From a virus: DNA of 64,000 nt. The stretch is from positions 62,001-126,000 of IMG/VR virus record IMGVR_UViG_3300007609_000003; one strand, written 5' to 3'. The notes below the pieces were generated by a model. It was given only the letters and a program-made list of their open reading frames with translations, did not search any database and was not told the DNA's origin. Shown here piece by piece: positions 14,556 to 51,401 of this stretch. Positions within the stretch are counted from its first letter, which is position 1. Each line of letters begins with the position of its first letter. A program made the translations under genes and the position numbers.

Positions 14556-15755
14556 ATGAAATACTCAGAATACTTCAATCAGACCATAAAGGACTTTAAA
14601 GACGACGGGCGTTACCGAGTCTTCAACGATATACTGAGAGAACGTGGTAACTTTCCTCGATCTATATGGTATGGTAAGTATGCGCCAAAGAACATAATTA
14701 ACTGGTGCTCAAACGATTACCTAGGAATGGGACAGAACCGGTTCGTGATCGACTCTATGCATACAGCTCTTGACCAAACCGGCGCAGGATCCGGTGGAAC
14801 GAGAAACATAGGTGGTACTTCTCACTATCATGTAACTCTTGAGCGTGAGTTGGCCTCACTACACAGTAGAAGCGGAGCGTTGCTATTCACAAGCGCGTAT
14901 GTTGCAAACGAATGGTCGCTAGTTGCACTATCACGCATCATACCAGACATTTGTTTCATTTCAGATAATAAAAACCATGCTTCTTTAATTATGGGAATGA
15001 AACATTCTCGAGCAGAGAAGAAAGTATTTCAACATAACGATATGGAAGATCTGGAGACTCAGTTAAAGAATGCCGTAAAAGAAAAACTAAATCCTGTTAT
15101 CGTTTTTGAGTCCGTCTATAGTATGGATGGGGATGTAAGTCCAATTAAAGATATCGTTGCGTTGGCAAAGAAGTATGATGCTCTAACTTACATTGACGAA
15201 GTTCATGCGGTTGGATTATACGGTAAACATGGTGGAGGAATGTGTGAAGAACTCAACCTATGGGCCGATGATATAGACATAATTAACGGAACTCTAGGAA
15301 AAGCATTTGGAGTTCAAGGAGGTTACATTGCGGCAAATAAAGAAATTGTTGATGCTATTCGATCTGTTGCAAGTGGATTTATCTTTACCACTAGTATGTC
15401 ACCGGTATTATGCGCAGGGGCTCTCGCCTCTATAAATTACCTCAAGGATCATTCATCTTTAAGAGACGAACATCAATCGAAAGCCAAGAAACTCAAACAA
15501 ATGTTGCAAGAGTACGATATACCAGTACACCCAAACGCATGTACTCATATTGTCCCAGTCATGGTTAACGACGCATTTAAGGCAAAGGAAGCAAGCGATA
15601 GACTACTCAATGAGTATGGAATATACATACAAGCAATCAATAGCCCAACTGTAGAAGTTGGAACAGAAAGACTTCGGATAGCACCTACACCGTATCATAC
15701 AGATGTAATGATGATGGAACTGGTAACTGCACTAAAAGAAGTTTTAACCAAATAA
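14556..15755 (+). CDS. hemA: 5-aminolevulinate synthase
   Basis: The 399-residue protein is a complete PLP enzyme of the alpha-oxoamine synthase group, condensing glycine and succinyl-CoA to 5-aminolevulinate, the first step of the C4 haem pathway. Diagnostic ALAS segments are [13 protein letters not shown] (77-89), [12 protein letters not shown] (140-151), [10 protein letters not shown] (184-193), [10 protein letters not shown] (214-223) and [12 protein letters not shown] with the PLP lysine K249. The C-terminal [19 protein letters not shown] is typical of ALAS and not of KBL or BioF. The C4 pathway is the alphaproteobacterial route. A stem-loop with a late-promoter-like element precedes it, so late expression is likely. 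Nothing suggests decay. Confidence 0.94.
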
Positions 15756-15767
15756 AGGTAATATATA

Positions 15768-16124
15768 ATGTTTTCAAACACTGCGCCGTCTGCCGTCATA
15801 AATGCGCTAATACAATGCGCTGCTTTATATGCTTCTTCCTACGGAATAGATTGGGCAATGTATCCTGTGATGGGAATGATTGGCTACATCGCGTTTATGC
15901 AATCAATCGCGGCATCGAGTTTATTTTCTGGCCTAGTTGGTTCTGAACCGGATGAAGAAACTGGCAACTATTCGCTTTCAGTGCTCATTGCCATTCTATA
16001 CTTAGCATCATCTTACCACGTGTATACGTTAGGATATACGGTTTTTTCTGGATTTATGTTTGCACACTCCGCGATTTTTTTATTGACAAATGTTTTTGGA
16101 ATTATAAAACTAGTAAAAGATTAA
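15768..16124 (+). CDS. four-helix integral membrane protein, unknown function
   Basis: This 118-residue hydrophobic protein has about four transmembrane segments, including VINALIQCAALYASS, YPVMGMIGYIAFMQSIAAS, LSVLIAILYLASSYHVYTLGY and FMFAHSAIFLLTNVFGI. A short charged loop, EPDEETGN, sits in the middle. It follows hemA by 12 bases and precedes the APS-kinase-like gene by 14 bases, so all are in one operon. I do not recognise a family. Confidence 0.75.
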   Translation: MFSNTAPSAVINALIQCAALYASSYGIDWAMYPVMGMIGYIAFMQSIAASSLFSGLVGSEPDEETGNYSLSVLIAILYLASSYHVYTLGYTVFSGFMFAHSAIFLLTNVFGIIKLVKD

Positions 16125-16138
16125 TCTGAGGTTATATA

Positions 16139-16567
16139 ATGAAGATTCTAATTATGGGACTCCCCGGTTCCGGTAAAACTTGGTTAGCTGAACGACTCCA
16201 GGCTCGTCTTAATTGTGCCTGGTTTAACGCAGACACAGTTAGACACATGGCCAACGATTGGGAGTTTAGTGAAGCTGCTAGACTTCGCCAAGCGTATCGT
16301 ATGAAATCATTAGCAGATTTTGAATTAGAAATGAAACGCACTGTCATATGCGACTTCGTATGCCCACTTGAAGAAACACGTGATATCTTCAACGCTGACT
16401 ACACCGTTTGGATGGATACTATCGAAAAAGGTCGTTTTAGTGATACGAATAGCATGTTTCAAAAACCAAATAAAGTAGATTATCATGTAACTAAGTGGTT
16501 TGATAACACAGACGAAACTTTAGCAAATGCTGTTGAGCGTCATATTAGGATACATAACGATGTTTGA
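16139..16567 (+). CDS. adenylylsulfate-kinase-like P-loop kinase
   Basis: The 142-residue protein has a P-loop GLPGSGKT at 7-14, then NADTVRHMAND (30-40), FSEAARLRQ (43-51), VICDFVCPLEETR (69-81) and VWMDTIEKGRFSDTN (90-104). These line up with the APS-kinase pattern DGDNVR, FSEADR, ISPY.xxR and the ADP-side lid, so it probably phosphorylates adenylylsulfate to give PAPS. It is shorter than cellular CysC (about 200 residues) because the C-terminal helices are missing. A related small kinase activity is possible. It overlaps the nucleotidyltransferase gene by 8 bases, suggesting joint action. Confidence 0.72.
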   Translation: MKILIMGLPGSGKTWLAERLQARLNCAWFNADTVRHMANDWEFSEAARLRQAYRMKSLADFELEMKRTVICDFVCPLEETRDIFNADYTVWMDTIEKGRFSDTNSMFQKPNKVDYHVTKWFDNTDETLANAVERHIRIHNDV

Positions 16568-16970
16568 TTATCAAAAACCAACAGTTCAAATGCTTGGTAG
16601 ATGGCAACCTTGGCACGACGGTCATACAGAACTATTTAAAAAAGCACTTGCAGAAACAGGTCAAGTTTGTATTATGGTTCGTGATGTAGGCGGTATCGTT
16701 GGCGAAGACGCAGGTGCCGGACGCACAACACCGCAAGACGATAATCCATTTGATTGCCATACTGTATCTATGAATATTGAAAAAGGATTAGCAAGCGCGG
16801 GCTTTACGCTCCGTGAAGAATATATTATAATGTTTGTACCTAATATTGTAGATATTAGTTACGGCCGCGGTGTAGGATATACCTTGACAGAACACGATCT
16901 TGGTGATACAATACATAGTATAAGCGCAACTAAAATAAGAAAACGAATGAGAGAAGAAGGAACATTATGA
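16560..16970 (+). CDS. HxGH nucleotidyltransferase, candidate partner of the APS-kinase-like protein
   Basis: The 136-residue protein has the nucleotidyltransferase signature GRWQPWHDGHTELF, with HDGH at 19-22, and a second motif ISATKIRKRMR at 121-131. These are shared by cytidylyltransferases, NMN adenylyltransferases and ATP sulfurylases. Because it overlaps the APS-kinase-like gene, a role in making adenylylsulfate is a reasonable guess, but substrate residues cannot be assigned. ATG 16560 gives the natural N-terminus and overlaps the previous stop. The next gene overlaps its end by four bases. Confidence 0.72.
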   Translation: MFDYQKPTVQMLGRWQPWHDGHTELFKKALAETGQVCIMVRDVGGIVGEDAGAGRTTPQDDNPFDCHTVSMNIEKGLASAGFTLREEYIIMFVPNIVDISYGRGVGYTLTEHDLGDTIHSISATKIRKRMREEGTL

Positions 16971-17776: not shown

Positions 17777-17947
17777 ATGAATAAATATCTTACATATATC
17801 TGCGTTGCATCTTTTTTGCTTGTCGGTGCTTCTTGTTCAACTACTACCAGCAGCGTTAACAGCAGAATCAACAATTTAGAAACTGCACTGTGGCATAATG
17901 CGATAGACGAGGCAGGCCGGAGTGCAAGTAGGAGTTTTAGGCAATGA
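17777..17947 (+). CDS. small lipoprotein-like secreted protein
   Basis: A 56-residue protein with a Lys-containing N-terminus, hydrophobic core YICVASFLLVGAS and Cys20, a lipoprotein-type signal peptide. The -3 residue is Gly rather than Leu/Val/Ile, so lipidation is likely but not certain. The mature part is Ser/Thr-rich and then charged (NSRINNLETALWHN). The size would also suit an outer-membrane spanin (Rz1-like), though the mature part is not proline-rich. ATGA overlap with the DoxX-like gene. Confidence 0.6.
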   Translation: MNKYLTYICVASFLLVGASCSTTTSSVNSRINNLETALWHNAIDEAGRSASRSFRQ

Positions 17948-18354
17948 TTAAGAAATTTGTAAACAAGATACCAGAGTTTTGCATGAGTCATTGGCTTATT
18001 CGCATTCCTTTGATTGTCGTATTCTTGCAACAGGGCTTTGACAAATGGCCGATCGATGCTGGTATGGCAGAAGCGTTTGGGCTTACTCTTTTAGTATGGA
18101 CATTTGTTGTACTAGGAGAAATCGGTGGAGCAGTTGGCCTTGTTGTCGGTGGTCTCTTGGACTATACTAAACGATTTAAAGAGTTGGGTGATCTCATTAC
18201 ACGTTTCTCTGGAATCGTTATTACTGGTATCATGACTGGTGTTATCTGGGTAGGCGAGCCTGAGAGTTTTACATACGTATTGCTGTATGATAACTTTCAC
18301 GTCTTACTCTGGGTAGGCGGCATGTACTTTGCTCTACGAGGCAATAGGACATGA
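17944..18354 (+). CDS. DoxX-like four-helix membrane protein
   Basis: The 136-residue membrane protein shows the DoxX pattern: RIPLIVVFLQQGFDKWP near 20-36, GEIGGAVGLVVGGLLDY near 59-75 and RFSGIVITGIMTGVIW near 88-103. The final segment DNFHVLLWVGGMYFALRG follows. DoxX-type proteins are small membrane subunits linked in some bacteria to terminal oxidases or thiol/redox balance. The overlap with the lipoprotein gene and the nearby pseudoazurin suggest a membrane redox function, which is inference. Confidence 0.65.
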   Translation: MIKKFVNKIPEFCMSHWLIRIPLIVVFLQQGFDKWPIDAGMAEAFGLTLLVWTFVVLGEIGGAVGLVVGGLLDYTKRFKELGDLITRFSGIVITGIMTGVIWVGEPESFTYVLLYDNFHVLLWVGGMYFALRGNRT

Positions 18355-18655: not shown

Positions 18656-19108
18656 ATGAGACTATTAACAGTACTAACAGCACTAACACTGGGCTTTTGC
18701 ACACCAGCCTTTGCTGAAACAGAGTTGCCTGCAGAATACACTTTAGAAATGTGGAACAGAGATCCGGATGACCGTAAGCGTAAGATGGTATTCTCTGAAG
18801 ATGTAATCACCGTGGCACCGGGTGCAGAAGTTACTTGGTTAGCAACAGATCGTGGTCATAATGTAGAGTTTATTGATGGCCCTGATGGCGTTGAGTTGGC
18901 AGACAAGTCAAAACTCAATAAAGACGTAACTATCACAATGACGGAGCCAGGCGTATATGTGTATGTATGTACACCGCACGCAACTATGGGCATGATTGGC
19001 GTAGTAGTCGTAGGTGTTGCAACACCAGAAGCAATCGCGCAAGCAGCGGATGCCAAGGTACGCGGCAAGTCAAAAAAGAAACTAAAAGATCTACTATCAG
19101 ACCTGTAA
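18656..19108 (+). CDS. pseudoazurin (blue copper protein) with signal peptide
   Basis: The 150-residue precursor has a signal peptide ending at AFA20, so the protein goes to the periplasm. The mature part has the type 1 copper ligands His68 (GHNVEF), Cys105, His108 and Met113 in YVCTPHATMGMIGVV. Cys-to-His and Cys-to-Met distances (3 and 8) equal those of pseudoazurin. The C-terminal helical extension (ATPEAIAQAADAK...KKLKDLL) is also pseudoazurin-like. It would carry electrons between cytochromes and reductases or oxidases. GGAGG precedes the start. It is the last gene before a strong terminator. Confidence 0.9.
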   Translation: MRLLTVLTALTLGFCTPAFAETELPAEYTLEMWNRDPDDRKRKMVFSEDVITVAPGAEVTWLATDRGHNVEFIDGPDGVELADKSKLNKDVTITMTEPGVYVYVCTPHATMGMIGVVVVGVATPEAIAQAADAKVRGKSKKKLKDLLSDL

Positions 19109-45256: not shown

Positions 45257-46282
45257 TTACTCTGAAACGAGCCATCTATCATTTTTAAGAGTCCAATCAA
45301 CAACTTCTGAGATTCTTTCACGCACTGTTTTCGATGGAACCCATCCCATCTCTGCCATCTTACTACCGTCCAACGCATAACGAAGATCGTGACCTGGTCG
45401 ACTCGAGTGGAAATCAACGAATTCGTAGTTCAATTCTTTACCCTGTGCCTCTGCAATGATCTTTGCGAGTTCGTAGTTATCAATCTCTTCAGCGCCAACG
45501 ATATTAAACTTAGGACACTTTGCTCCACCCCATTCTAATTCTGTTACGTCTTTGTCAAGGAGAAAATGAACTGCATCGGCCACGTCTTCGGCGTGAATGT
45601 AATGTCTCGATCCGGCAACGGTCTTTGTGTGGTCACTATGGATAGTAATCTTTTCACCGTCTCTTGCTCTCTTAATACACATAGGAATGTATTTCTCAGG
45701 ATGCTGTCTCTCACCGAATACGTTCATAGTATGAGTAATGTAGATTGGAAGACCGTATGTGTTTTCATATGCAACCGCGAGTTCTTCTCCACCTGCCTTT
45801 GATGCGCTGTATGGATTCGTTGAATTGTATCTATCGTTCTCTTTATACTTAATGCCATCCGGTGCAGGACCAAAGACTTCGTCTGTACTGAAGTAGATAA
45901 ATCTTTCGAGGTTGTCCTTCTGAGCCTTTGCGAACTCCAATATATTACAGGTTCCTACGACGTTGTCAAGGACAAATTCCATCGGGTACTCGATCGAACG
46001 GTCAACATGGGATCCTGCCGCAAGGTGAGCAATGTAATCTACCTTTCCTATTTCGGCGCGAATAAGTGGATTGAGCTCTGCTTTCAGATCGTGGAATACA
46101 ACCTTTACTCGCTTTTTCGTTTCGTCATCAAACTCTTGTAGAGCATCATTTAAGCGATTTAGATTTCCACTGTAATCCAATCTATCGAGTGTAACTACTT
46201 CCCAGTCTGTCTCTTTTAACACTTTATTTACGAGGTGGTGAGCAATAAATCCAGCTCCGCCAGTAATCAAAATTCTTTTCAT
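45257..46282 (-). CDS. rmlB: dTDP-glucose 4,6-dehydratase-like SDR enzyme
   Basis: The 341-residue extended SDR has the NAD-binding ITGGAGFIA (6-14), HLAAGSHVDRS (86-96), the FSTDEVFG loop with catalytic Asp/Glu (131-138) and the YSASK pair Tyr158/Lys162. SHVDRS and TDEVFG are typical of RmlB, which makes dTDP-4-keto-6-deoxyglucose, the entry to rhamnose and other deoxysugars. None of the later rhamnose genes is in the window, so it may feed the host pathway or act on another nucleotide sugar. A GATAAATA late-like octamer lies at 46310-46317. Confidence 0.85.
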   Translation of the reverse strand: MKRILITGGAGFIAHHLVNKVLKETDWEVVTLDRLDYSGNLNRLNDALQEFDDETKKRVKVVFHDLKAELNPLIRAEIGKVDYIAHLAAGSHVDRSIEYPMEFVLDNVVGTCNILEFAKAQKDNLERFIYFSTDEVFGPAPDGIKYKENDRYNSTNPYSASKAGGEELAVAYENTYGLPIYITHTMNVFGERQHPEKYIPMCIKRARDGEKITIHSDHTKTVAGSRHYIHAEDVADAVHFLLDKDVTELEWGGAKCPKFNIVGAEEIDNYELAKIIAEAQGKELNYEFVDFHSSRPGHDLRYALDGSKMAEMGWVPSKTVRERISEVVDWTLKNDRWLVSE

Positions 46283-46309: not shown

Positions 46310-46317
46310 TATTTATC
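46310..46317 (-). promoter_or_regulatory. late promoter variant GATAAATA upstream of rmlB
   Basis: GATAAATA on the minus strand, 28 bases before the rmlB start, at the end of the sulfotransferase gene. One mismatch to the octamer. Confidence 0.4.
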
Positions 46318-47143
46318 CTACGACATCTGGATAAAAAGAGCGGTAGAACCACGGGTTTTCTTCGACGACTCTCTTATGAAAACCTTCTGATAGCTTTCTT
46401 GTTGGTTCTTTCCATGGCATAAGTGTAGGTTTCGTATGATGATCTGTCTTTTCTCGGAAGTACGCATTATCGTGTTCAAACATATGTGACTGTTGGATAT
46501 TATTTAAATCGTGATCGAACGGTTGTAGACCAAGGAAATCATATATACGCTTTAACATATAGTTTGGATCTCGAAGAAGGTCCTCATAACGAATAAACTT
46601 TACTCTTGACGGATCCTGTTGAAATAGATCGACATACTTTGGTATCTCGTGTCTTAGCGTAGCCGAGAAAGAGTTTGTTTCCTGGAAGTGATACGCGTAC
46701 TTCTCTGTTTCAGACATAGAACCGTATAGAGTATGGTCGTCGCCAAAGGTATGTAGAGCCTTTATCTTATCGTTGACTCGATCAAAACTTTCTACGATAT
46801 CTCTAAGATCTCGAACAGTAACGAGGATCTTTGCGTTCGGAAATAAATGATGCAGACCCGACCAGTGTCTTGATTTTGATATCACGGTTGGTTTATCTGT
46901 GATACCTTCGTACCAACCGCGAGTAGCTCCAATTGCCATACCATAGACGGCATCATCGGCCTGTTCACAGCTCATCGCTTGAAAGGATTCAGAGTATCTC
47001 GATTTAATAAGGATCTGTTCGCTGAGTATCTGTGGAAAGACGTCGGTCGCTGTCGTAAATACTTCAGGGTTCTGCTGTAATAGATTCATTAGGACGGTCG
47101 ACCCTGTTCGAGGTAGACCGCCACAAAAGTTTAATCGTTTCAT
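46313..47143 (-). CDS. sulfotransferase
   Basis: The 276-residue protein has the PAPS-binding loop GLPRTGSTVLMNLL (9-22) and the 3'-phosphate motif KILVTVRDLRDIVESF (105-120; Arg111 and Ser119). The C-terminal FIRYEDLLRDPNYMLKRIYDFLGL segment is also typical of sulfotransferases. It should transfer sulfate from PAPS to a sugar or tyrosine. An APS-kinase-like gene at 16139 could supply PAPS. A late octamer lies about 28 bases upstream. Confidence 0.88.
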   Translation of the reverse strand: MKRLNFCGGLPRTGSTVLMNLLQQNPEVFTTATDVFPQILSEQILIKSRYSESFQAMSCEQADDAVYGMAIGATRGWYEGITDKPTVISKSRHWSGLHHLFPNAKILVTVRDLRDIVESFDRVNDKIKALHTFGDDHTLYGSMSETEKYAYHFQETNSFSATLRHEIPKYVDLFQQDPSRVKFIRYEDLLRDPNYMLKRIYDFLGLQPFDHDLNNIQQSHMFEHDNAYFREKTDHHTKPTLMPWKEPTRKLSEGFHKRVVEENPWFYRSFYPDVVG

Positions 47144-47170: not shown

Positions 47171-47178
47171 TATTTATA
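47171..47178 (-). promoter_or_regulatory. late promoter octamer upstream of the sulfotransferase
   Basis: TATAAATA on the minus strand, 28 bases before the start at 47143; it overlaps the last codon of the preceding gene. Confidence 0.75.
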
Positions 47179-47419
47179 CCTGATGTCCTGCCCTGGTTGT
47201 CGTGGCCTGTAGGAGATTACCAACGCTGGTTGCGTTTCCGTCAGAAGCAAATGAGAACTTTTGAATCGTATTGGGTGAACTAACATAACCTGATGTTACT
47301 CCGTAAGAGTTTGGAACTGGAGTTGGCGCATTAAACGCATCCGCGGTCGCCTTACCGTTAAAGTAGACTCCGTCGGAATACTCTGTAAAGAAGAAGTTTT
47401 CTGTTATATCGACTGGCAT
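47174..47419 (-). CDS. remnant kelch-like protein with one repeat
   Basis: This 81-residue ORF keeps the full N-terminal anchor of the paralogue at 47447 (MPVDITENFFFTEYSDGV...) and then a single degenerate repeat (GYVSSPNTIQKFSFASDGNATSVGNLLQA), lacking the double glycine. It ends RAGHQV like the others. A 103-base near-identical repeat marks its origin by duplication, followed by loss of five repeats. It still has an intact frame and its own late promoter, so it may be expressed as an anchor without a propeller. Confidence 0.65.
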   Translation of the reverse strand: MPVDITENFFFTEYSDGVYFNGKATADAFNAPTPVPNSYGVTSGYVSSPNTIQKFSFASDGNATSVGNLLQATTTRAGHQV

Positions 47420-47452
47420 GAATAAATCCTACTTTGTTTAGTCTATTTATAC
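47350..47452. repeat. 103-bp direct repeat, copy 1
   Basis: It matches 48370-48472 with a single mismatch at 47408. It spans a late promoter, leader and the first codons of a kelch-like gene. Confidence 0.9.
47444..47451 (-). promoter_or_regulatory. late promoter octamer upstream of the remnant kelch-like gene
   Basis: TATAAATA on the minus strand, 25 bases before the start at 47419, within the 103-bp repeat. Confidence 0.72.
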
Positions 47453-48439
47453 CTGAGCGCCAGAACCAGATGTCGTGTTTCCTACTATTAGATCGCCAAC
47501 ATCAGTTGCGTTTGCATCAGAAGCAAAAGGGTACTTATCTATTGCATTTGCTCTTGTTGACACAGGTTCAAATCCGCCTGCAACGTACCCAGACGCATTA
47601 CTTGATACACCTGCCGCCAGGTTTCTGGCCTGTGTCAAATCACCAACATCCGTTGCATTTGCATCAGACGCAAATGGAAACTTGTCAATCGTATTAACAA
47701 CGCCGGTTGGTATAAATCCGCCTGCGCTATAGCCAGATACATCACTTGAATTTCCAGTTGGGCCTATGTTTGCCTGTGTTAAATCGCCGACGTCCGTCGC
47801 ATTAACATCGGCAGCAAAAGGAAACTTTTGAATTACATTAACCTCGGGGTTGCCGCCAGAAACGTACCCATCTGAGGTGCTTGATTGTCCAGCTGCACGA
47901 TTTTTTATTTCCAACAGATCACCTACGTCTGTTGCATTTGTATCGGTCGCAAATGGAAACTTATCAATAGTATTCACTTGAGGTGGAGAAAAACCACCTG
48001 AAACATAGCCCGACGTCGTACTAATTTGGCCCGAGGCCTCCTGCCTTGCTACTGTTAAATCTCCTACATCAGATGCGTTACCGTCAGAAGCAAATGGGTA
48101 TTTTTCAATTATATTAAAATATTGAACAGGTGGAAAAAACGAGCCTCCATTCGCATAACCGGATACATCACTTGAATTTCCAGTAACACCTGACCGAGTA
48201 CCGGTCAGATCACCAACGTCGGTTGCGTTGCCGTCAGACGATAAAGAAAACTTTTGAATCGTATTTACTCTACCTGATGGACCAGCCCCCCCGGCAGTGT
48301 ACCCACTCGTAGTACCCTGTGCTTGTGTAGGATCTGGCGGTGCTGGTAAATTAAATGCAGTTGCGGTTGCCTTACCGTTAAAGTAGACTCCGTCGGAATA
48401 CTCTGTAAAGAAGAAGTTTTCTGTTATGTCGACTGGCAT
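47447..48439 (-). CDS. six-repeat kelch-like protein, MPVDITENF anchor
   Basis: The 330-residue protein has an anchor (1-40) with ENFFFTEYSDGVYFNGKA and a Pro-rich linker (PAPPDPTQAQ), then six repeats. Several blades vary: AGG replaces SGG in three, and one has NGGSFFPPVQYFN. The end is GSGAQV rather than AGQQV. The anchor is shared only with the remnant at 47174. A late octamer lies in the 103-bp repeat upstream. Confidence 0.76.
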   Translation of the reverse strand: MPVDITENFFFTEYSDGVYFNGKATATAFNLPAPPDPTQAQGTTSGYTAGGAGPSGRVNTIQKFSLSSDGNATDVGDLTGTRSGVTGNSSDVSGYANGGSFFPPVQYFNIIEKYPFASDGNASDVGDLTVARQEASGQISTTSGYVSGGFSPPQVNTIDKFPFATDTNATDVGDLLEIKNRAAGQSSTSDGYVSGGNPEVNVIQKFPFAADVNATDVGDLTQANIGPTGNSSDVSGYSAGGFIPTGVVNTIDKFPFASDANATDVGDLTQARNLAAGVSSNASGYVAGGFEPVSTRANAIDKYPFASDANATDVGDLIVGNTTSGSGAQV

Positions 48440-48472
48440 GAATAAATCCTACTTTGTTTAGTCTATTTATAC
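48370..48472. repeat. 103-bp direct repeat, copy 2
   Basis: Partner of 47350-47452, spaced 1020 bases apart, with one mismatch. Recombination between the two copies would delete one kelch-like gene. Confidence 0.9.
48464..48471 (-). promoter_or_regulatory. late promoter octamer upstream of 47447-48439
   Basis: TATAAATA on the minus strand, 25 bases before the start at 48439, within copy 2 of the repeat. Confidence 0.75.
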
Positions 48473-49456
48473 TTGTTGACCCGTTGGACCGTAGATACTT
48501 TGTAATAGGTCCCCGACGTCAGTTGCATTTGCATCGGCCGCAAAAGGAAACTTATCTATCGTATTCGTAATGGTAGAAAATCCAGCTGCTGTATATCCAG
48601 AACTCGTGCTCGATTGACCTGCCGAGTATCCTCTCGCATCGGTTAGATCGCCAACGTCCGTTGCGTTTGTATCAGTTGCGAATGGAAACTTATCTATCGT
48701 ATCTACATATGGTGGAGCGTTACCGCCCGATGTGTAACCAGATTCATTACTGTTCTGTCCAGACGCGATATATCTCGCTTGAGTTAGATCTCCAACATCC
48801 GTTGCACTCGCATCAGTAGCAAAAGGAAACTTATCTATCGTATTAAAATAGTTTGGTGGATTAAAACCACCGGACGTATATCCAAAATCTACACTCGACT
48901 GCCCTGCGACGCCTTGTCTTGCCTGAGTTAGATCACCAATGTTTGTTCCACCGTCTCCATCAGACGCAAACAAAAACTTATCAATAACAGTTTTTCCAGT
49001 AGGAGCCTCAGTGTCAAAACCACCCGACGCATATCCTGCTGTCGTGCTTGTATGACCAGCTAAGAGAGACCTTGAGTCAGACAAACCACCTACGAGAGAA
49101 GCGTTACCGTCAGAAGCAAAAGGAAACTTATCAATTCGAGACTGGTGAGGAGGGGCAAGACCGCCCGATGTATAACCGTGCGTTGAAGATGACTGGCCCG
49201 ACGCATATGTTCTTGCCTGAGATAAATCACCAACGTCAGTTGAGTTTGCATCAGAAGCAAAAGGAAACTTTTGAACCGTGTTGAGCGTGGATCCTGGAAC
49301 ATATCCACCGGAAGTATAACCAGACACGGATCCCTGTGCTTGAGACGGAGGTACTTCAAACACTTTTAGGTGATCGTTCATTACGAACTTAGTCTTGTCT
49401 GTAGAGATGATAGCGGCATCGTCTACGACTTCTACACCTTTAACGAACCATGCCAT
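48467..49456 (-). CDS. six-repeat kelch-like protein, VKGVEVVDD anchor
   Basis: The 329-residue protein has an anchor (about 1-42) with VKGVEVVDDAA and DKTKFVMNDHLKVFEV, like that of the copy at 31925. Six repeats follow; the third carries an insertion (FDTEAPTGKTVIDKFLFASDGDGGTN) and the last has AAG in place of SGG. The closing sequence is GPTGQQV. Its start lies directly next to the stop of the upstream paralogue, so these genes are cotranscribed. Confidence 0.75.
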   Translation of the reverse strand: MAWFVKGVEVVDDAAIISTDKTKFVMNDHLKVFEVPPSQAQGSVSGYTSGGYVPGSTLNTVQKFPFASDANSTDVGDLSQARTYASGQSSSTHGYTSGGLAPPHQSRIDKFPFASDGNASLVGGLSDSRSLLAGHTSTTAGYASGGFDTEAPTGKTVIDKFLFASDGDGGTNIGDLTQARQGVAGQSSVDFGYTSGGFNPPNYFNTIDKFPFATDASATDVGDLTQARYIASGQNSNESGYTSGGNAPPYVDTIDKFPFATDTNATDVGDLTDARGYSAGQSSTSSGYTAAGFSTITNTIDKFPFAADANATDVGDLLQSIYGPTGQQV

Positions 49457-50371
49457 TTAATGTTGATTACCGGTAGGACCATACACACCCTGCGTCATGT
49501 CACCGACGTCGGTTGCATTTGCATCAGAGGCAAAAGGAAACTTATCTATTACGTTAGATAGGCCCGGCTGCCATCCACCAGTTGTGTATCCAGATTCTGT
49601 GCTAGACTGGCCCGTGGTAAAACCTCTACCCTGTGTTAGGTTGCCAACATCCGTTGCATTTGCATCCGTTGCGAATGGAAACTTATCAATAGTGTTTATG
49701 CCGGCAGGAGTCCCGCCCGTGGAATAACCGTTCTCAGATGATGATTGCCCTCCTAGAGACCCTCTTGCCTGTGTTAAATCTCCAACATCAGTCGCATTTG
49801 CATCAGAAGCAAATGGAAATTTTTGAATTACATTTTGAACGGGGCCATTATATCCACCTGATGAATAACCAGATTCTGTGGAAGATTGACCGGAATTAAA
49901 TCTTACTGGCGCCACTAGATCGCCGACATCGGTAGCATTCGTGTCAGTAGCAAATGGAAACTTATCAATCGTGTTGAGCGACCCTGGCCCGGTTCCACCT
50001 GAGCTATACCCAGATGCACCAGACATTTGCCCAGATGCTTGATTCCTTGCCTGCGATAAATCCCCAACATCTGTTCCATTACCATCAACCGCAAATGGAA
50101 ATTTTTGGATTGTACTTGACATTAAAGGAGGCCCATTACCGCCTGACATATAACCAGATACCGAGCTCGATTGCCCTGCTGCATATCTTCCACCTAATAC
50201 GAGATCGCCAACGTCAGTCGCATTGCCGTCAGAAGAAAAAGAAAACTTTTCAATTGTGTTAACGTTTCCAGGATTGCCTCCCGAAGAGTAACCGCTTATA
50301 CTTCCCTGTACTGAAGGCGGTGGAGTAACCGTTACACTTGATATCTTATCCTGAGTAATTCTTATTGCCAT
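49457..50371 (-). CDS. six-repeat kelch-like protein, short anchor
   Basis: The 304-residue protein has the shortest anchor of the family: MAIRITQDKISSVTV and a PPPSVQ linker (about 22 residues in all). Six regular repeats follow. Blade loops differ most in the segment after SGG (NPGNVN, NGPPLMSS, TGPGSLN, YNGPVQN, TPAGIN, WQPGLSN), the place expected for exposed loops. The end is GPTGNQH. Confidence 0.75.
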   Translation of the reverse strand: MAIRITQDKISSVTVTPPPSVQGSISGYSSGGNPGNVNTIEKFSFSSDGNATDVGDLVLGGRYAAGQSSSVSGYMSGGNGPPLMSSTIQKFPFAVDGNGTDVGDLSQARNQASGQMSGASGYSSGGTGPGSLNTIDKFPFATDTNATDVGDLVAPVRFNSGQSSTESGYSSGGYNGPVQNVIQKFPFASDANATDVGDLTQARGSLGGQSSSENGYSTGGTPAGINTIDKFPFATDANATDVGNLTQGRGFTTGQSSTESGYTTGGWQPGLSNVIDKFPFASDANATDVGDMTQGVYGPTGNQH

Positions 50372-50414
50372 CTATCTATACTTTCTTGTGTGATATCTTG
50401 AAAACATTCATTGG

Positions 50415-51401
50415 TTATACCTGATGACCTGCTCCATATTCCCTTGCTTGTGTTAAATCACCAACATCCGTTGCGTTTCCATCAGACGCAAAAGGAAACT
50501 TATCAATTACATTCGAACTAGGTGGCGCATTACCCCCGGAAACATAGCCAGATGTAGTACTTGATTGGCCTGCTGCGCTCGATCGGGCTTGTGTTAGGTC
50601 GCCGACGTCGGTTGCATTAGCATCAGTTGCAAATGGAAACTTGTCAATTGTATTCCTAAAAGGTGGAGTCCAACCACCTGAAGTATATCCAGACGCATCA
50701 CTTTGTTGACCATTTCCGGCCAAAGCTTTTCTTGCTTGAGTTAAATTACCCACGTCAGTAGCATTTCCATCAGATGCAAAAGGAAATTTATCAATCGTGT
50801 CAAAAGCAGGGCCTAACCCTCCACCGGAAGTATAACCATTTTCTGAGCTGGACTGGCCGGTAGTATTGTACCTTCCTTGCGTTAGATCCCCGACGTCCGT
50901 TGCATTTGCGTCTGTTGCAAAAGGAAATTTGTCAATAATGTTTGAAGTTGGGTACCCTCCACCAGAAGTATAACCATTTTCTGAGCTAGATTGGCCAGCC
51001 AAACCATATCTTCCCTGCGTCAAATCGCCAACATCAGTTGCATTTGCGTCGGCAGCAAAAGGAAACTTGTCAATTATATTAACCGCAGGCCTAGCGCCAC
51101 CGGACGTGTATCCTGATGTTGAGCTAGATTGACCTGTTGGCCGCTCTCTTGCCTGAGTCAAATCGCCGACGTCCGTTGCATTGGCATCAGCAGCGAAAGG
51201 AAACTTATCGATGGTATTTACATCACCAGGCGCATCACCACCTGAAGTATAACCACTCGTTGAACCTTGGGTCGAGTATCTCTGCTCATACTCAGTCGCT
51301 AGAATAGCCCCGTCGAACTCAAACCCTTCGTCAGTAAAGGTAAGAGTGTAGTCACCGAAGTTAATTGTACCATCAGCGTTAAATTTAATCTCAGTTGCCA
51401 T
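50415..51401 (-). CDS. six-repeat kelch-like protein, INFGDYTLTF anchor
   Basis: The 328-residue protein has an anchor (about 1-45) with IKFNADGTINFGDYTLTFTDEGFEFDG, clearly related to that of the copy at 56177. The six repeats are very regular. One junction has an inserted NGQQSDASGYTSGG, showing that repeat borders can slip. It closes with GAGHQV. A run of AAAAAGGATAACCCTTC precedes the start, with AAGGATAA as a modest ribosome site. Confidence 0.75.
   Translation of the reverse strand: MATEIKFNADGTINFGDYTLTFTDEGFEFDGAILATEYEQRYSTQGSTSGYTSGGDAPGDVNTIDKFPFAADANATDVGDLTQARERPTGQSSSTSGYTSGGARPAVNIIDKFPFAADANATDVGDLTQGRYGLAGQSSSENGYTSGGGYPTSNIIDKFPFATDANATDVGDLTQGRYNTTGQSSSENGYTSGGGLGPAFDTIDKFPFASDGNATDVGNLTQARKALAGNGQQSDASGYTSGGWTPPFRNTIDKFPFATDANATDVGDLTQARSSAAGQSSTTSGYVSGGNAPPSSNVIDKFPFASDGNATDVGDLTQAREYGAGHQV

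Follow-up and report, generated by a model that had tools for sequence, protein, structure and literature searches.

Two overlapping phage genes, for a P-loop kinase and a nucleotidyltransferase of the HxGH type (NTase), most likely encode a minimal synthase for PAPS, the activated form of sulfate, that includes a new kind of ATP sulfurylase. Two enzyme types unrelated to one another, Sat and CysDN, are known to activate sulfate, and the NTase would be a third, orthologous to neither. In the scheme that we propose, the 136-aa NTase would move AMP from ATP onto sulfate to yield APS and pyrophosphate, and the 142-aa kinase would phosphorylate the 3′-OH of APS to generate PAPS. In the phage, PAPS would probably be spent by a sulfotransferase, either its own or one of the host. 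We infer both reactions and the use of their product from the identity of the two genes, their overlap and fusion, the fold of the kinase, and the genomic context. We found no published description of the pair in the open-access literature; its genes are currently annotated as kinase, cytidylyltransferase, or NMN adenylyltransferase, so that the pathway would have been overlooked.

The gene pair and its fusions

The window is a 64,000-nucleotide stretch of a 201-kb virus record. The initial annotation had described an APS-kinase-like gene that overlaps a gene for an HxGH nucleotidyltransferase, together with a distant, clear sulfotransferase gene, and we confirmed all three at their annotated positions (Table 1). 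The longest ORF of the NTase, 16527–16970, would overlap the kinase gene by 41 bases. NTase relatives mostly begin at MFD, however, so the ATG at 16560 is the likely start, and with this start the two genes overlap by 8 bases (ATGTTTGA). A short overlap at a stop codon is a usual sign of coupled translation.

Table 1. Genes of the window that bear on sulfate activation and sulfate transfer.
Feature	Position	Strand	Size and evidence
APS-kinase-like P-loop kinase	16139–16567	+	142 aa, shortened lid; Pfam APS_kinase, fold, profile search
HxGH nucleotidyltransferase (NTase), proposed minimal ATP sulfurylase	16560–16970	+	136 aa; invariant motifs, fold, operon contexts
dTDP-glucose 4,6-dehydratase-like SDR adjoining the sulfotransferase	45257–46282	−	TIGR01181, GDP_Man_Dehyd
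Sulfotransferase, possible PAPS user	46313–47143	−	276 aa; Sulfotransfer_3 and Sulfotransfer_1

Just upstream of the pair, the phage encodes a 5-aminolevulinate synthase (14556–15755, + strand; TIGR01821, 558.7 bits versus a cut-off of 338.55). A predicted membrane protein of 118 aa without a Pfam match (15768–16124, + strand) lies directly 5′ of the kinase, and in other viral loci a different small hydrophobic protein is found upstream of the kinase. On the other side of the pair are genes for a DoxX-family membrane protein (17944–18354, + strand) and then a pseudoazurin-like copper protein (18656–19108, + strand), which are possibly redox genes carried by the phage.

When viral contigs were searched with one or the other protein, 455 and at least 599 relatives were returned. 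Kinase and NTase were both present in 150 of the 159 fetched loci that matched either, nearly always adjacent and on the same strand, which argues that the pairing is not due to chance. The two are also found as a single chain. PHROG 10255, which is annotated only as "kinase" with no pathway proposed, spans both halves and is a fused form of exactly this pair from Stenotrophomonas and Xanthomonas phages. Further fused ORFs were present in two alphaproteobacteria (L251 and L252; APS_kinase 51–52 bits) and in the marine virus G190, which also carries a relative of the window's sulfotransferase. Among cultured phages the fused form all but escapes notice, since only 5 of 50,697 catalogued phage records contain it. 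The fusion resembles the bifunctional Sat–APS kinase and PAPS synthetase in that both proposed activities can reside in one chain, but here the kinase comes first and is followed by a tiny nucleotidyltransferase that is not Sat. In the Stenotrophomonas phage Bhz60, a NADAR-domain gene lies directly 5′ of the fused gene (L157:15056–16232).

DUF2061 is a neighbour family of the pair in 44 viral loci, and 36 copies lie between the kinase and NTase genes; these small membrane proteins were seen in marine viruses (L109, L054, L136, and others). From its place in the viral loci and in the bacterial cys operons described below, DUF2061 appears to be an orphan family with a link to sulfate activation.

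The phage sulfotransferase and the possible use of PAPS

The sulfotransferase clears the gathering scores of both Sulfotransfer_3 (PF13469, 74.6 bits versus 27) and Sulfotransfer_1 (PF00685, 52.5 versus 22) and has a 5′-phosphosulfate loop, GLPRTGST, so that its initial description as clear holds. Among proteins of solved structure, tyrosylprotein sulfotransferases come closest to it (E = 3e-6). The gene is located in the tail-gene region beside the dehydratase-like gene, whose product reaches 261 bits with TIGR01181, below the cut-off of 365, and 175 bits with GDP_Man_Dehyd (cut-off 27); this SDR may be the source of a sugar acceptor. On the other flank, the sulfotransferase gene is adjoined by a run of paralogous tail-region proteins made of repeats such as FPFASDANATDVGDL (47174–51401, − strand).

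As the kinase is retained in nearly all viral loci, the likely product is PAPS rather than APS. A search of 43 virus records gave no PAPS reductase over the cut-off, so that of the known uses of PAPS sulfation is the main one left. The initial annotation had proposed that the pair feeds the phage's own sulfotransferase, with phage fibres or glycans as the hypothetical targets of sulfation. The genes are compatible with such coupling, but 29 kb separate the two loci. Of 36 virus records with the pair, only three (G000, G150, and G190) have a clear sulfotransferase, a count that stands without a background rate since the control set of capsid relatives had few long contigs. Conversely, 3 of 6 records longer than 80 kb that carry a sulfotransferase of the window's type also have the pair. 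In a motif scan near the pair, only L069 and L100 among the viral loci had plausible sulfotransferase-like ORFs besides the window's own; an ORF upstream of the pair in L228 matched a sulfotransferase model at 18.3 bits, below the Pfam cut-off of 27, and was set aside. On these counts, it is plausible that the pair supplies the phage sulfotransferase with PAPS, and we put this forward as a tentative reading.

The same counts bear on a second possibility, to which we give close to an even chance: that the PAPS made by the pair goes to sulfotransferases of the host or to some other pathway of the host and that the phage sulfotransferase is incidental here. This would fit the rarity of clear sulfotransferases among the pair-bearing records and the absence of the pair from the other three of the six large sulfotransferase-bearing records. 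Most of the virus records are fragments, however, sulfotransferases diverge fast, and weak matches were present in five further records (plus G166); in addition, the lack of PAPS reductase in the records searched points back to sulfation. Retention of the pair without a sulfotransferase, which the initial annotation had named as evidence against coupling, is thus what we see in most records, but these are for the most part fragmentary, and the PAPS could serve sulfotransferases of the host. If PAPS synthesis by the pair is true, many uncultured marine phages would be viruses with their own PAPS supply, and viral sulfation would become directly testable.

Sulfur genes beside the pair in cells

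In bacterial and archaeal contigs we found 405 relatives, mainly from SAR11 and other marine alphaproteobacteria with some from SAR86, and a few of the cellular loci (e.g., L170 and L242) had phage-like neighbours. Five alphaproteobacterial genomes of one order (L253 and L269–L272) have the gene order CbiX-SUMT-CysI-CysH-DUF2061-kinase-NTase; the L271 operon is cut off at its SUMT gene by the end of the contig. Within this order of bacteria, the NTase was present in five of six genomes. The assignments in the L253-type operon are well above their thresholds (CysI 707 bits versus 457, CysH 248 versus 154, DUF2061 77 versus 23), and its SUMT passes the curated cut-off. CysH of this operon has a CC..R and C..C pattern, which is typical of the APS-reducing iron–sulfur forms. 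In all five genomes, the pair sits after CysI-CysH, where CysD, CysN, and CysC would be, yet CysD and CysN are a PP-loop ATPase and a GTPase, a protein type unrelated to the NTase. Judged by the sequences of its genes, the L253-type operon is one for assimilatory sulfate reduction in which the kinase and the NTase are the sole candidates for sulfate activation.

The pair also adjoins other sulfur genes. Among 80 loci from the chromosome collection, the order cysQ-kinase-NTase was seen in 34 (marine alphaproteobacteria), and aprA and aprB adjoin the pair in 35, in three arrangements. When cysQ and aprBA are taken together, 71 of the 80 loci have one or both at a distance of no more than 6.5 kb from the NTase, in several arrangements; as many of these loci are close relatives, the 71 are not independent events, but the arrangements nevertheless differ. 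The neighbours themselves are clear members of their families (AprA 1002 bits versus 642, AprB 190 versus 136, CysQ 289 versus 229). Two SAR11 loci without an adjacent kinase (L385:2684–6638 and L387:6568–10556) have the order NTase-aprM-aprB-aprA-orf116 on one strand with the NTase first. In Allochromatium vinosum, the corresponding place in the sat-aprMBA operon is held by sat (PMC3779200). The orf116 of the L385 and L387 operons is a conserved 116-aa neighbour of aprA. In many SAR11 loci of the L218–L236 region (e.g., L225:3172–6029), the kinase is preceded by genes for an ABC transporter, an HlyD-type adaptor, and a glycine-rich repeat protein.

Canonical enzymes for sulfate activation were rare in the genomes searched. 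Canonical Sat turned up in two of 32 genomes (31 with the NTase), and CysN over the cut-off in none of 27 pair-bearing genomes; CysD was not found in the genomes searched, where the sole strong PAPS_reduct match was the CysH of G046. As these genomes include many that were assembled from single cells or metagenomes, each absence of Sat or CysDN is soft. The NTase was present in 110 of 147 sampled genomes of the SAR11 order and in only 6 of 114 genomes drawn from the class. The dissimilatory and assimilatory sulfate pathways of SAR11 were called incomplete in a 2025 study (PMC12636525), and the NTase is a candidate enzyme for the step that they lack.

The apr-linked loci raise the question of direction. 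The NTase could run mainly towards ATP or ADP, using APS with PPi or Pi, and so finish the sulfite oxidation begun by the host APS reductase, with the phage copy boosting flux. Its position beside aprMBA in 35 of the 80 loci, its occupation of the sat position without a kinase in L385 and L387, and the reported gaps in SAR11 sulfur metabolism (PMC12636525) are all consistent with this, but it leaves unexplained why the kinase is kept in nearly all viral loci and why the NTase has a place in assimilatory cys operons. There was also no apr gene among the common viral neighbours, and we consider this direction unlikely as the main one.

Synthesis of PAPS by the pair, with the NTase as a substitute for ATP sulfurylase, had been offered as a speculation in the initial annotation; the operon context in cells and the fusions now argue strongly for this predicted activity, as do structure and profile searches for the kinase. 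There is good reason to think that the NTase is a third class of ATP sulfurylase, of ~130 aa. In SAR11 it would complete the pathway from its place beside aprMBA, in streamlined assimilatory operons it would stand in for CysDN, and in marine phages it would move about with an APS kinase as a mobile PAPS synthase. A third and far smaller ATP sulfurylase in most sampled SAR11 genomes would, if true, close a gap that has been pointed out for SAR11 (PMC12636525) and alter the prediction of sulfite oxidation and sulfation capacity in the most abundant ocean heterotrophs.

The pair itself is real and old. In a tree of 54 sequences, the fused and cys-operon forms branch outside, and one branch contains most marine viral forms together with the apr- and cysQ-linked forms of the SAR11/AEGEAN type. 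The latter group is nested among viral sequences at weakly resolved forks. The pair has likely been exchanged between phages and hosts, in one direction or the other.

The kinase and nucleotidyltransferase families

The kinase shares with APS kinase (CysC) a P-loop (GLPGSGKT) and a score above gathering with Pfam APS_kinase (PF01583, 30.8 bits versus 21.1). Several generic AAA models of Pfam, including AAA_28, are also passed with about equal support, so the assignment draws on structure, profile search, and context. The 142-aa protein falls below the equivalog TIGR00455 (21.6 bits, cut-off 138.7) and, on these scores, is a divergent relative rather than a member of that curated family. Its AlphaFold2 model has a pLDDT of 90.6 (the alignments used for structure prediction left out two rows from the phage collection), and APS kinases came first when the model was searched with Foldseek. 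In VIA, the top 26 rows were all APS kinases (Z 18.2 to 16.1), the best with an rmsd of 1.9 over 139 residues, whereas gluconate kinase had a Z of 16.1 and adenylate or shikimate kinases were near 13. A family profile run against PDB sequences likewise had an APS kinase as its best match (E = 2e-14), and 24 of the first 26 rows were APS kinases. As modelled, the kinase is structurally an APS kinase.

Four residues, D32, R35, F43, and R48, do not vary among 20 diverse members and correspond in a profile alignment to D63, R66, F75, and R80 of the Penicillium APS kinase. D32 falls on the catalytic Asp, and the other three on the Arg, Phe, and Arg of the APS pocket, so that the D-x2-R, F, and R of CysC are retained. 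Unlike in CysC, the pocket Asn is replaced by an invariant Gln (Q51), and the lid is shortened and missing its usual sequence FTG..PYE.P. The Gln and the short lid mark the protein as a divergent relative of APS kinase, and its substrate is presumably APS.

The NTase of the window has the motifs GRWQPWHDGH and ISATKIR, and across 19 diverse members the invariant elements are GR.QP.H.GH, R41, N62-P63, P94-N95, GR.VG, and ISA..R. Four arginines, R14, R41, R103, and R127, are predicted to bind sulfate and phosphate. Its model (pLDDT 83, with a weak loop at 105–110) has the fold of an HxGH nucleotidylyltransferase, with a Z of 10.7 to both PPAT and NMNAT. The window protein itself scores 16.7 bits with PF01467, below the gathering score of 21, but its homologues in L253 (31.9) and L252 (27.2) pass, and homologue scores and fold together place the NTase in this superfamily.

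By sequence, the nearest relatives of the NTase are NMN adenylyltransferases (PRK01153, 1.6e-6; 1f9a in the PDB profile search, E = 7e-11), and it is probably derived from that branch of the HxGH superfamily. It nevertheless falls far below the NadM equivalog TIGR01527 (20.2 bits, cut-off 181.2), and its stretch from the PN to the GY element is ~19 residues shorter than that of NadM. The missing part is presumably much of the segment with which NadM holds nicotinamide, and its loss would fit a small acceptor.

The likeness to Sat is more limited. The NTase shares with Sat its HxGH-type nucleotidyltransferase character, an IS.T..R-like element, and the operon place beside aprMBA, but it has ~136 aa as compared with ~350 aa for Sat ORFs and is missed by PF01747 (14.8 bits, cut-off 24.3). 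ATP sulfurylase was not among its PDB profile matches at E values up to 0.1, nor among the structural rows shown, a result with which kinship remains compatible. When the NTase was checked for the Sat loops, defined as QxRN, HxxH, and GRD (PMC3779200), HxGH and GR(G/D) were present and QxRN was absent. On these comparisons, the NTase belongs neither to Sat nor to CysDN, a point of family membership that we keep distinct from function.

The proximity to NadM made us take seriously a NadR-like NAD salvage, in which the kinase would act on nicotinamide riboside and the NTase would be an NMN adenylyltransferase. Besides the sequence matches and the structural tie, the kinase passes AAA_28 and the fused gene of phage Bhz60 follows a NADAR gene. 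The partner is APS-kinase-like in both profile and fold matches, however, the cellular neighbours are sulfur genes and not NAD genes, the equivalog cut-offs are failed, and the PN-to-GY segment is shortened. We rejected NAD salvage, now very improbable, because the identity of the kinase, the genomic context, and the loss of the segment all speak against it.

Activation of a non-sulfur compound, for instance a sugar or a modified nucleotide, for which a kinase with an HxGH nucleotidyltransferase is common logic in sugar activation (HldE is an example) and KdsA-like and KdsB-like genes adjoin the pair in some viral loci, is equally improbable, since such neighbours occur in only 18–19 viral loci, sulfur genes dominate the cellular context, and the kinase fold is closer to APS kinases (Z 18.2) than to gluconate kinase (Z 16.1).
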